A DNA stretch of 29,699 nt from a virus. The notes below the pieces were generated by a model that had not been told where the DNA came from, did no database searches, and worked only from the letters and a program-made list of their open reading frames with translations. Positions 1,697 to 25,707 of the stretch are shown one piece after another. Position 1 is the stretch's first letter, and each line of letters starts with the position of its first letter. A program made the translations under genes and the position numbers. The stretch is taken from IMG/VR virus record IMGVR_UViG_3300007640_005663, positions 1 to 29,699 of that record; one strand, written 5' to 3'.

Positions 1697-1936
1697 ATGA
1701 ATCAATACTTTGTTCAAGTACACAGAGCATCGCTAGATCCATTCAATTACCCACATTTGGGTAAAGTTCAGTATTTCAAAGTAGAATTAATCTATCATGG
1801 ATTTCGATTGATAGAGCATCCAGACTTTCCAGGACCATATAGAGCAAGATTCATAGCATTACATAGTAAACGGTCAATGATAAGTTATGTAGCATTAAAG
1901 TATACGGATGTTGATTTTTCTTATAAATACCTTTAG
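1697..1936 (+). CDS. Hypothetical protein, 79 aa
   Basis: The product (MNQYFVQVHRASLDPFNYPH onward) is rich in aromatics and basic residues, with no signal peptide or membrane segment. No family is recognised. No ribosome site precedes the ATG; instead TATAAATA ends 5 nt upstream, the same arrangement as at 2262. The last codons contain the next late octamer (1922-1929), and the stop overlaps the first base of the inverted-repeat element. The ORF is isolated within a non-coding region, so it could be fortuitous. The promoter placement and normal-looking composition favour a real late gene. Confidence 0.5.
   Translation: MNQYFVQVHRASLDPFNYPHLGKVQYFKVELIYHGFRLIEHPDFPGPYRARFIALHSKRSMISYVALKYTDVDFSYKYL
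1922..1929 (+). promoter_or_regulatory. T4-type late promoter octamer before the inverted-repeat element
   Basis: Exact TATAAATA. Six bases (1930-1935) separate it from G1936, the first base of the 12-bp arm of the element at 1936-2035, so the predicted transcript begins at or within a base of that arm. No ORF starts here. Confidence 0.55.
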
Positions 1937-2035
1937 GTATACAGCGTTATAGACCCAATGGACGGTATAGTCTTTTTGCGTAGGATATAGTCGCTATGTT
2001 ATTATAAAAGCATTGTGAGATCTACGCTGTATACC
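1936..2035 (+). ncRNA. Candidate structured small RNA closed by a 12-bp inverted repeat
   Basis: GGTATACAGCGT (1936-1947) and ACGCTGTATACC (2024-2035) are perfect reverse complements around 76 nt. Inside, further pairing is possible: CAATG (about 1956-1960) with CATTG (2011-2015), GGAC with GTCT around GGTATA, and ATATAG-TCG-CTATGT (1985-1999). A late-promoter octamer ends just before the element. There is no ORF. The size and closed fold would suit a stable phage RNA. A recombination or inversion site with inverted arms is the main alternative. No known RNA family is recognised. Confidence 0.45.
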
Positions 2036-2787: not shown

Positions 2788-3291
2788 ATGAGGGGTTCGA
2801 TTGCAATATTCGTGTTCTTGGGTGCCTGTGGGACCATTGACACAAAAGACTCGGTTGTAACAGCGCAACCATATATAGGATTAGAAGAACGTGCAGATAG
2901 ATCAGAGATACGTGCATTTACGGGCGTTGATCCTGTGCGTACAGAATGGTGTGCAGCCTTTGCCAATGCTGTACTAGAACTAGACGGTATTCCCAGTTTA
3001 AATGATCAAACACGTTATCCACCGTTGATGGCACGTAGTTTTCTGTATTGGGGAACTCGTGTAGAACGTGTTGATATACAGCGTGGAGATGTAGTTGTTT
3101 TTCCTCGAGGAAATCAAGGTTGGCAAGGACATGTTGGATTTTATGTCAAAACACAAACACACAACGATCGAGAATACTGGGTAATACTAGGAGGCAATCA
3201 AGAAAACCGTGTGCGTTATGATTTGTTTGATCCTCACAGAGCAATTGGTATTAGACGTCATATGTCTCCTGTCGCCATTGCGCAAAAGTAA
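2788..3291 (+). CDS. Lipobox-bearing CHAP/NlpC-type cysteine hydrolase, probable lysis protein
   Basis: Predicted peptidoglycan amidase/endopeptidase, 167 aa. An N-terminal MRGSIAIFVFLGAC segment has a short basic start, a hydrophobic stretch and a lipobox LGAC with Cys14 as the acylated residue. The catalytic part follows: Cys55 in EWCAAFANAV, GDVVVF near 101-106, His115 in GHVGFY, and Asn137 in GGNQ, a plausible Cys-His-Asn triad as in CHAP-like enzymes of the TIGR02594 kind (family name from memory). The start at 2788 rather than 2743 puts the signal at the N-terminus and follows CTAAATA. The 3' end overlaps the convergent polymerase gene by 41 nt. It is probably a membrane-anchored endolysin or tail hydrolase; a secreted lipoprotein form is unusual for a phage endolysin. 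Confidence 0.72.
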   Translation: MRGSIAIFVFLGACGTIDTKDSVVTAQPYIGLEERADRSEIRAFTGVDPVRTEWCAAFANAVLELDGIPSLNDQTRYPPLMARSFLYWGTRVERVDIQRGDVVVFPRGNQGWQGHVGFYVKTQTHNDREYWVILGGNQENRVRYDLFDPHRAIGIRRHMSPVAIAQK

Positions 3292-4897
3292 ACAATCTTG
3301 CATCTGTACAATTGATGTAATCTGAGTTGTTTTGGTGTCTAACAACTCCGCTACCACTGACTATGTCGCCGTCTCTATACTGAAACGGCTTTTGTATGGT
3401 TACATCTACGTATTCACCATAGTTGGTGCCCAGTGTGAGGAATGTAACATAGCGTCCGTTGCGGCCACGGAATGTTCTACCGTTGGCAATAACACCAGCA
3501 AAGTTTACACGTTCTAAGAAACGCTGTTGTACACCTAGTCCACGTGGAAATCCTCTGTGCCACCAACCAGGTTCAGTTAGTATGTTTCGTCTGTGTGCTT
3601 CTGTTTGATACACCCAGCTTCTATAGCTTCCTTGGCAGTGACGGAGGTTGGCTCTCCAGAAGGCTTCTGGGTTGTGTGCTTTTTGGTATGCCAGTGCCCA
3701 GATGAGTCTTCCGAGATTAACAGCATGAGCGCGGCATAGTCCGAAACCGGATAACTCCTGTAGTGCAGCCATGGCCTGTGCTCGTTGAGGGTTGTTTCCC
3801 AAGCGTTCCACAAACTCCAAAATCTTTTCATCATTCTTTTTGGCAAACGCCCTACGGTATGAATCAGCTTCATATGCATCTACTCCTATAATGCTACTTA
3901 TAATTTCTATAGCATCGTCTTCAAATACAATGCTGTCTTGTGTTGCTTCTTGCGACCAGTCTTGGAACACTGCTGCTTTTTGTCTTCCGCTCATAGCAAC
4001 AGGTCGTACAAGGGCTGTAGCAAACACACAATCCTGTACACAGGTAGGTTGTATTGCACGGAATAGTCTACGCATAGCAGGGCTTTCCCCTTGTGTAACA
4101 CCTAGTACATCGCCTCTAGCAAGCAATGCTGCTGTTGCTGCATCCTCTTCAGGATAGTCTTCTAATGCTGTATGCGGGTCTATTTCCAGTAGTTGACTCA
4201 AGCCTCTATTGGCCAGTATGTCAACTTTGAGGTGTTCAAGATCCTCAACTTCGTGTTTGTCTAATAATATTTGGTTGTCTTCTGAGATAAGTGATTTAGG
4301 TAGTTTTCTAGTGAACATAACGATGCCTCCACAATGTTTTGATATTGCTCTTTTTTTGCCTAGTAATTTACGCTCTATGCGTTTTGCTTCTGTAGGATCT
4401 ACACCTACTGATTCATATGTAAAGTTTCTAGGAAGTCTACCTGTGGCGCCCAATCGTTTGGCTGCCTCACGTTTGGCACTTTTTGGTTTGTACGTGACAT
4501 AGTTGCTCAACCTTGCCGTCATGCCGGGCCACTTTTTGAATATGCGATTCATAACTTCACCTTGTCGCCAATGTTCAAAATCGATATCAACATCCGGTAG
4601 GTCATCACGCAGTGGGTTCATAAACCGTGCCACAGGTATCTTCCACTTGATGGGATCCACGTCTGTAATCCCAAGCAAGTAACACACTAGACTACTGCCC
4701 GCTGATCCACGTGTCATGTGTTTGATATCAGTGGTAAGATCTATAATGTCACAAATTTGTAGGAAGTATTCTGTGAAGCGTAGGTCTAGTATTAACTCAA
4801 ACTCTTCAACTAGTCTCTCTTGATATTCTGTACCTTCAGGTACTGGCCTTTTAAATCTGTCATAAAGCCTTTGTATATTTTCTAAATCTGTTTTCAT
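3251..4897 (-). CDS. dnaE: DnaE-like (family C) DNA polymerase core, no PHP domain
   Basis: 548 aa, resembling bacterial DNA polymerase III alpha (about 1,160 aa in E. coli) but missing the whole N-terminal PHP region. Visible in order: RGSAGSSLVCYLLGITDVD (63-81); the palm motif PDVDIDF with Asp104 and Asp106; KHCGGIVM (187-194); LKVDIL with the third acidic residue Asp226; GVTQGESPAMRRLF (about 266-279); a helical segment ending in LAYQKAHNPEAFWRANL (401-417); and a C-terminal OB-like part from about 464. All three expected catalytic Asp are present. AGAGG precedes the ATG, and only 90 nt separate it from the helicase gene upstream, so a lost PHP exon-like piece cannot be hidden there. It may be a repair/translesion or replicative polymerase. 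It overlaps the + strand hydrolase gene at its end. Confidence 0.88.
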   Translation of the reverse strand: MKTDLENIQRLYDRFKRPVPEGTEYQERLVEEFELILDLRFTEYFLQICDIIDLTTDIKHMTRGSAGSSLVCYLLGITDVDPIKWKIPVARFMNPLRDDLPDVDIDFEHWRQGEVMNRIFKKWPGMTARLSNYVTYKPKSAKREAAKRLGATGRLPRNFTYESVGVDPTEAKRIERKLLGKKRAISKHCGGIVMFTRKLPKSLISEDNQILLDKHEVEDLEHLKVDILANRGLSQLLEIDPHTALEDYPEEDAATAALLARGDVLGVTQGESPAMRRLFRAIQPTCVQDCVFATALVRPVAMSGRQKAAVFQDWSQEATQDSIVFEDDAIEIISSIIGVDAYEADSYRRAFAKKNDEKILEFVERLGNNPQRAQAMAALQELSGFGLCRAHAVNLGRLIWALAYQKAHNPEAFWRANLRHCQGSYRSWVYQTEAHRRNILTEPGWWHRGFPRGLGVQQRFLERVNFAGVIANGRTFRGRNGRYVTFLTLGTNYGEYVDVTIQKPFQYRDGDIVSGSGVVRHQNNSDYINCTDARLFTFAQWRQETYDV

Positions 4898-11921: not shown

Positions 11922-12296
11922 ATGTTATTAAAAGATATTGAAACAAAATTTCCTTATTTGAGCGTAGTCGCCTATGGCGGCAACGAATACGTGGGTATTA
12001 TTGTAAATCAAGATAGTATTGTAACAACTATGTATGTTTACACCAAATTACGTACCGAAGAACACAAATGTTTATTATTAGAACTAGGTGAAATTTGGTG
12101 GTGGGAATCTAATAGAATGATTCCTATAAACATTTTTCTACGTAGTGAGATTCATGAATTAAGTTATAGTATGATGACTATGAATTCTAAAGATGTTAAA
12201 GTAGTAATGGGTCATTGTGTTAATTTAAATAACTTGACAATAAAAAGAGTAAAACGTAAAAGTGTGCAAGTTATGAGACGGTCTGCTGTTCGTTAA
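11922..12296 (+). CDS. Conserved phage hypothetical protein, 124 aa
   Basis: The only + strand gene in a long minus-strand block. The start MLLKDIETKFPYLSVVAYGG is chosen over the ATG at 11880 because the longer form would read through the divergent gene's start and promoter. The body has LLLELGEIWWWESNRMIPIN, and the end is very basic (IKRVKRKSVQVMRR). I recall related unnamed proteins in marine T4-like phages with the same EIWWWESNR segment; this is from memory. No catalytic motif is seen. Its last 26 nt overlap the convergent mini DnaE-like gene. The basic tail fits nucleic-acid binding, as an inference. Confidence 0.75.
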   Translation: MLLKDIETKFPYLSVVAYGGNEYVGIIVNQDSIVTTMYVYTKLRTEEHKCLLLELGEIWWWESNRMIPINIFLRSEIHELSYSMMTMNSKDVKVVMGHCVNLNNLTIKRVKRKSVQVMRRSAVR

Positions 12297-12846
12297 GTTG
12301 TTCACAAATTAAATTCATATGAACTACAACACTAACAGCATATGCAATAGCATGTGCTTTCTTAAAATAGTAACCACCGTCAGTGGGAGCGACCCACACT
12401 TTTTCTAATATCGTTGGCCAAGTTTCGTTAACAAGATGGCGTTTGGCCGGCCGTATCATCGCTAGTACTGCTGCTAATTGTTCTACGTTTGTCGGCTTTG
12501 TTTTGCGTAATATTTCTCCGTGTCCGGAGATATGAAAGATAAGATCGGTGAAATCGTCGTGTTGTAAAAGACTCCATTCTGGTTCCTTGTTCATTAAACG
12601 TTGTAAATGTTCTTCGTCCTTAACATCATTGTAAATGCTAACATTAAGAAAGTCTAGTTTGAAGTAGCCTCTATCTTCTGCTGTCTTGTAATCAATAGTA
12701 GCCAAGTTGTCAACAGGGTTGTGCGGACACTCGGTTACATACACACCAGTATTGTGTTTTTTACCTGTATCTAATTTTGCTACACGGTGTTGTATCTTGT
12801 CTAATATAACACTGCGATCAGCAAAGTCGATGTCAATATCAGGCAT
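12271..12846 (-). CDS. Mini DnaE-like palm protein, 191 aa
   Basis: This tiny protein carries the catalytic signature set of family C polymerases. It opens with MPDIDIDFADR (Asp5 and Asp7), then has HNTGVYVT (31-38) where DnaE has its KH.GG motif, YFKLDFLN with Asp65 as third acidic residue, ILRKTKPTNVEQLAAVLAMIRPAKRHL near 112-138, and YYFKKAHAIAYA near 159-170, like the Y.F.KSH..AYA motif of DnaE. The PHP, thumb, OB and tau-binding parts are absent. The ATG at 12846 is chosen because GGAG lies 7 nt upstream and the motif starts there; it overlaps the 72-aa gene by 8 nt. It is the last gene of the uvsW operon. It may be a minimal polymerase, a nucleotidyltransferase or a degenerate relic; I recall similar unnamed proteins in cyanophages. 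Confidence 0.75.
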   Translation of the reverse strand: MPDIDIDFADRSVILDKIQHRVAKLDTGKKHNTGVYVTECPHNPVDNLATIDYKTAEDRGYFKLDFLNVSIYNDVKDEEHLQRLMNKEPEWSLLQHDDFTDLIFHISGHGEILRKTKPTNVEQLAAVLAMIRPAKRHLVNETWPTILEKVWVAPTDGGYYFKKAHAIAYAVSVVVHMNLICEQLNEQQTVS

Positions 12847-13057
12847 CTTCACGCTCCATTGCATATCTCCACATTTCACTATCAGGTACACGATTCCAAT
12901 GCTTTTCGCCTTCTTTAGGCGTAGCACCAATATACTGCTCTCCTGTCTCTCTGTCAATCAATAACCACTTTGCTGGTGCTTTGGTTTTAACAATCAGTTC
13001 AACAGGTTCATCAAGTTCGTAAACTTGTACATCATCTTGCAATTTTCTAAAATTCAT
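12839..13057 (-). CDS. Small conserved hypothetical protein, 72 aa
   Basis: The product opens MNFRKLQDDVQVYELDEPVE and continues with a compact beta-like part (LIVKTKAPAKWLLIDRETGEQYIG) and a charged tail ending MEREDA. No family name is known to me. The segment VKTKAP.KW..ID.ETG looks familiar from small T4-like marine phage proteins, from memory. It overlaps the zinc-finger gene (ATGA at 13054-13057) and contains the ribosome site of the mini DnaE-like gene, to which it is probably coupled. Confidence 0.7.
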   Translation of the reverse strand: MNFRKLQDDVQVYELDEPVELIVKTKAPAKWLLIDRETGEQYIGATPKEGEKHWNRVPDSEMWRYAMEREDA

Positions 13058-25699: not shown

Positions 25700-25707
25700 T
25701 ATTTATA
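25700..25707 (-). promoter_or_regulatory. T4-type late promoter octamer
   Basis: Minus strand exact TATAAATA (25707-25700), 4 nt before the ATG at 25695. It starts a sub-operon of the cytidylyltransferase-cupin and the glycosyltransferases below it. Confidence 0.65.

Follow-up and report, generated by a model that had tools for sequence, protein, structure and literature searches.

The small stable RNAs of bacteriophage T4 (species 1 and 2, RNA C and RNA D) are small structured molecules of unknown function that are encoded within a transfer RNA (tRNA) gene cluster. The packaging RNA (pRNA) of phi29, about 100-120 nt long, has paired ends and a branched interior; we know of no T4-type packaging motor that uses RNA. 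Noncoding RNAs described from T4-like marine phages include CfrI, which is antisense to psbA, PhotoRC-II, wcaG and the glutamine riboswitch (PMC9602691). Late promoters of T4 consist of the octamer TATAAATA from -13 to -6, the late promoter of Aeh1 has CTAAATA from -12 (PMC1524935) and a cyanophage late-promoter variant reads NATAAATA (PMC2984593). Here we analysed a stretch of viral DNA of 29,699 nt, IMG/VR record IMGVR_UViG_3300007640_005663, referred to below in its full length as the window. Comparison with related sequences makes it likely that positions 1922-2035 of the window are a module of a T4-like marine phage, composed of a late promoter and a stand-alone structured RNA. The RNA would belong to a family of small folded RNAs that appear to be previously uncatalogued and to be made late by uncultured T4-like marine phages. 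The features of the module are the following.

1697-1936, + strand: ORF79, a conserved open reading frame (ORF) for the upstream protein, whose last codons (YKYL-stop) hold the promoter
1922-1929, + strand: TATAAATA, T4-type late promoter octamer (-13 to -6), assigned from its sequence, the spacing kept in the family and the published T4 spacing
1935, + strand: predicted start of transcription (+1), immediately preceding the first base of the stem; the prediction follows T4 geometry and the ATGs that stand 4-5 nt past these octamers at related loci
1936-2035, + strand: putative structured RNA, 100 nt, with homologues at the same site in contigs L085, L089 and L088, and the best match in the window to model R3 (described below)
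1936-1947, + strand: P1 5' strand, paired to 2024-2035; its changes in L085 and L089 are compensated
1951-1953, + strand: P1b 5' strand AGA, pairs with UCU at 2021-2023; relatives have UCA/UGA, ACA/UGU or GAG/CUC
1956-1960, + strand: P2 5' strand CAAUG, pairs with CAUUG at 2011-2015; L085 has CGAUG/CAUCG
1961-1972, + strand: P3 hairpin GAC-GGUAUA-GUC, starts with a motif like the conserved RACA, kept in L085 and L089
1978-1999, + strand: P4 hairpin GCGUAG...CUAUGU, compensated U-A to C-G in L089
2009-2010, + strand: conserved AG that adjoins the P2 3' strand on its 5' side and is present in nearly all members
2011-2015, + strand: P2 3' strand, pairs with the P2 5' strand
2021-2023, + strand: P1b 3' strand, pairs with the P1b 5' strand
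2024-2035, + strand: P1 3' strand, pairs with the P1 5' strand

The arms of the element are perfectly complementary over 12 bp (GGTATACAGCGT at 1936-1947 and ACGCTGTATACC at 2024-2035) and enclose 76 nt, and 6 nt separate the octamer TATAAATA from position 1936. The original prediction, which had taken this segment for a stable late RNA, described the inverted repeat, its interior and the distance to the octamer exactly, and it was right that the element holds no ORF, the only ATG frame inside being one of 10 codons that is not kept in relatives. It overlooked that ORF79, which stops with the TAG at 1934-1936, contains the octamer and reaches the first base of the element. Taken alone, the inverted repeat is weak evidence and not exceptional, because 100 dinucleotide shuffles of the window yielded 8 with arms as strong and strong spaced inverted repeats occurred at about chance frequency across 624 kb of related contigs. 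The fold of the element had an energy of -30.9 kcal/mol (z -3.1; 2 of 200 shuffles were equally good), and TATAAATA was not enriched in the window (5 observed, 4.6 expected). The shuffles would suit a chance palindrome in an intergenic region, a reading to which we give hardly any credence since the element has diverged homologues with compensated changes and a constant spacing to the promoter, and since the covariation reported below contradicts it. The significance of the element rests on the comparison with its relatives.

Eighty related virus contigs were retrieved with the DnaE-like polymerase adjoining the element. A search of IMG/VR with the exact arms returned only L001, which is 98% identical to the window and carries the element unchanged. 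The search with ORF79 led to L085, L089 and L088, in which a structured segment directly follows ORF79 behind an identical TATAAATACCTTT. In L085 and L089 the segment occupies the same place as the window element and is homologous to it, though diverged: two positions of P1 changed from U-A to C-G with compensation, and within this group P2 changed from A-U to G-C and P4 from U-A to C-G, again with compensation. At this site L088 has a related, second form, preceded by the same promoter. In three collinear contigs (L005, L006 and L012) the element is absent and the site is shorter by about 100 nt; the RNA-less relatives at this site also lack TATAAATACCTTTA. Their ORF79 has a different C-terminus with no octamer in it, and the ending YKYL-stop is confined to RNA-bearing relatives, so that the promoter and the RNA seem to have been gained or lost together at this site. 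Among the 17 contigs that a motif scan returned, the only genuine ones were L001, L085 and L103 (the same contig as L089). Inverted repeats in L003, L013, L042, L060 and L068 were rejected because they had no family features or overlapped ORFs.

The absence of the element from collinear relatives is what would be expected of a DNA element, that is, an invertible segment, a recombination site or a miniature transposon with 12-bp terminal repeats. We nevertheless hold this to be extremely unlikely: target duplication was not seen, each record contains a single copy, the arms vary between phages yet stay paired, the nested inner helices covary, the wobble pairs favour one strand and the gain or loss includes the promoter.

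The second form connected the window to a wider family. L088 matched segments in L028, L030 and L024, with P1, P1b and P2 common to all four sequences and double changes in 11 of 20 pairs. Model R1, built from these four, found L027/L029 and, weakly, L085, L033 and L035, at or within 3 nt of their ends. When further contigs were collected with the protein of a small ORF, ORF72, R1 matched L140, L137/L138, L150, L151, L143 and L144-L146 with 38.7 to 76.3 bits. About ten further distinct homologues were found, mostly immediately 5' of ORF72. An alignment of 11 sequences, A11, from which the window, L085 and L089 were left out, was used to measure covariation. In A11 98.6% of the pair cells are able to pair, and compensatory double changes occur in 16 of the 19 pairs; none of 500 shuffles reached the main values, sliding the partners destroyed the signal, and RNAalifold predicted the same helices. 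Among the G-U wobble cells, 8 are as expected if the + strand is the RNA, against 1 for the - strand. The search for covariation in related phages, which had been put forward as a check of the RNA reading, therefore left that reading standing, as both the arms and the inner helices vary with compensation.

Members of the family are about 90-105 nt long and have a terminal stem P1 of 9-15 bp, P1b of 3 bp and P2 of 5-6 bp, the last flanked by the conserved RACA and AG, with the small hairpins P3 and P4 inside P2. All forms have the arrangement 5'-P2-RACA/G ... AG-P2'-3'. The sequence of P2 in the main group varies (AGUUUG/CAAACU, UGAUUG/CAGUCA and others), and a hairpin near the position of P4 is present in most members. 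L033 and L035, which match the model weakly, are probable members. In L152, at about 655-760, TATAAATAACACTA is followed by an 11-bp stem (GTATACACACA/TGTGTGTATAC) located 5' of a distant relative of ORF72. This stem stands behind TATAAATA at the family spacing and its interior is unlike the models; it is possibly a third form of the RNA.

Model R3 was built from A11, and so without the window, L085 and L089. Within the whole 29.7 kb of the window, R3 ranked 1937-2034 on the + strand first, with 20.6 bits (E 0.0084); the antisense strand of the element gave 15.5 bits and nothing else in the window exceeded 11.4. L085 scored 24.7 bits. L088 ties the two forms together by position, and on these grounds we assign the window element to the family, in which it is divergent.

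The position of the promoter is a further property common to the family. Of 16 members, 14 have a box of the type NNTAA(A/G)TA upstream of the stem and separated from it by 3-7 nt (15 of 17 with the inclusion of L152, in which the interior fails to match); the background for a box at such a distance is 0.4% of positions, a value from which no meaningful formal probability follows, as the members are related. Many members carry NATAAGTA as the box, and the variants NATAAATA and CTAAATA also occur. Because the distance between octamer and stem agrees with the spacing of T4 late promoters, in which TATAAATA is followed by a start 6 nt past the octamer and which depend on gp55, gp33 and gp45, the transcript would begin at the stem, with the start predicted at 1935. 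What sets this family apart from T4 late promoters generally is the attachment of the box to a structured RNA at near-constant spacing. The start point was calibrated with protein-coding genes: in related contigs octamers lie 4-5 nt before the ATG of an ORF at 10 of 40 sites, compared with 43 of 3356 for permuted control octamers, a distance that fits a start 5-6 nt downstream of the octamer. With the helices compensated, the wobbles on the + strand, the distance from octamer to stem kept and the T4 spacing matched, the late structured RNA of the original prediction is supported. Boxes of the sequences TATAAATA, NATAAATA and TATAAGTA often stand 4-5 nt before an ORF-opening ATG, in the window at 1684-1691, 2249-2256 and 25700-25707 (- strand) and in further contigs (L005, L031, L067, L089 and L092). 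This suggests leaderless late messenger RNAs (mRNAs) in this phage group.

Since the hairpin begins at the stop codon of ORF79, it might also be a terminator or a 3' stabiliser of the ORF79 mRNA. This is very unlikely, given that a U-run is absent after the stem (the sequence past 2035 is AGTAAAACAC), that no terminator-like site was found, that the 76-nt interior is structured, that a conserved promoter lies immediately 5' and that most members do not stand behind ORF79.

The gene context bears on whether the RNA acts on its own or as part of an mRNA. The RNA ends 11-22 nt before the ATG of ORF72 in about ten relatives (L024, L026/L028, L027/L029, L015, L137/L138, L140, L143, L144, L150 and L151), the RNA of L088 overlaps an ORF72-like frame, and copies of ORF72 without the RNA have a late-type octamer close to the ATG (L014, L016 and L149). 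These arrangements would agree with a cis-acting 5' leader of a late mRNA that controls translation or stability of ORF72, the window copy being a leftover after loss of ORF72. We regard a leader as the strongest of the alternatives, yet less likely than a self-contained RNA. ORF72 does not follow the RNA in the window, L085, L089 or L030, yet the helices of the first three stay compensated, and sequestration of the start codon or the ribosome site is not common to the family. A relationship between ORF79 and ORF72 was not detectable. The next gene of the window (ATG at 2262) has its own TATAAATA at 2249-2256, and no ORF without its own late-type octamer follows the RNA there, so that the window RNA is probably stand-alone. 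That helices stay compensated in the stand-alone copies leads us to prefer a stable RNA that is complete in itself; across the family, a late transcript would begin with the RNA, which may make up all of it in some cases and serve as its leader in others.

Several observations weigh against a stand-alone late RNA of a T4-like phage as the reading of 1922-2035. The position before ORF72 in most relatives fits a leader equally well. No octamer is present in two of the members, L033 and L035. The alignment A11 was produced with R1, itself made from four of the rows of A11, and its counts therefore lean somewhat toward structure. The R3 score of the window form is modest and falls to 11.7 bits in L089, so that the two forms are connected in part through their shared position. 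Finally, genes of T4-type machinery were found in relatives and not in RNA-bearing records: the capsid gene gp23 is present in three long relatives and the late sigma gene gp55 in one of these (G004, polymerase 89% identical) and in G033, whereas gp23 was found in none of the RNA-bearing records and gp55 neither in the 29.7-kb window fragment nor in the RNA-bearing records tested. A match to phrog_12791 was not found in G052, G012 or G058; most RNA-bearing records are fragments, but G052 has 236 kb.

Comparison with catalogued RNAs gave no counterpart. Against Rfam 15 the window had no match at or above the gathering score and 13 other members had none at E up to 1; the sole trace was a weak cyano-S1 match, far below threshold, that overlaps the start of the window element. 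The 14 members thereby differ from the cyanophage RNAs listed above, which they resemble as noncoding RNAs of T4-like marine phages. ARAGORN detected no tRNA gene in the window and no tRNA or transfer-messenger RNA fold in the elements, and the likeness to species 1 and 2 and RNA C and D of T4, which lie among tRNA genes, is one of general description. The likeness to the pRNA of phi29 is one of shape only. BLAST and tblastn searches of phage isolates with the element, the RNA of a relative, ORF79 and ORF72 gave no match, one scan of bacterial genomes did not detect the core motif, and no description of this RNA was found in the literature.

The RNA is followed by a conserved block, block B, which is possibly the 3' boundary of the RNA unit.

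2041-2112, + strand: block B, tandem TCGTTAGNYACCRTATGAC hairpin-like repeats, then a T-rich run

Block B is common to RNA-bearing (L085, L089 and L088) and RNA-less (L005 and L012) contigs; a canonical terminator was not found in it and its fold has a z of only -0.7. Upstream, at 1430-1535, lies conserved noncoding block A, found in about 30 related contigs, with an invariant palindromic AAGTACTT, AATCACCACC upstream of it and ACCC-TTTCG downstream. No consensus RNA structure was found for block A, which is perhaps a late promoter or an origin-type DNA site. About 26 nt at 1556-1581, forming the hairpin GGACAAAAGTCTTTTTGTCC, are missing from L001. The - strand encodes a 548-amino-acid piece of a DnaE-type polymerase (3251-4897), in which Pfam recognises NTPase and finger domains, and another reading frame (12271-12957) that resembles DnaE by eye; the two may be parts of a split polymerase of a T4-like phage.

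The RNA retains its shape despite changes of sequence, and for this reason it very probably has a function. According to the model that we propose, the late RNA polymerase would start at 1935, which would make the stem itself the 5' end of the transcript, and exonucleases coming from the 3' side would halt at P1, leaving a stable RNA of about 100 nt. The window RNA probably acts alone; its most likely mode of action would be to bind, late in infection, a protein or an RNA of the phage or of the host. A more specific role is an unlikely though conceivable extension: a dedicated part of the late-infection machinery, such as an RNA for assembly or packaging, or one that lures away a host RNA-binding factor as a decoy, with its 5' end set by a promoter placed directly on the closing stem. 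To our knowledge, few structured RNAs are known from lytic phages apart from tRNAs. The octamers located 4-5 nt before start codons offer a built-in calibration of the start point. The strong covariation, the fixed link to a late promoter, the conserved core motif and the occurrence in both stand-alone and leader-like settings would make the function of this RNA family directly approachable.
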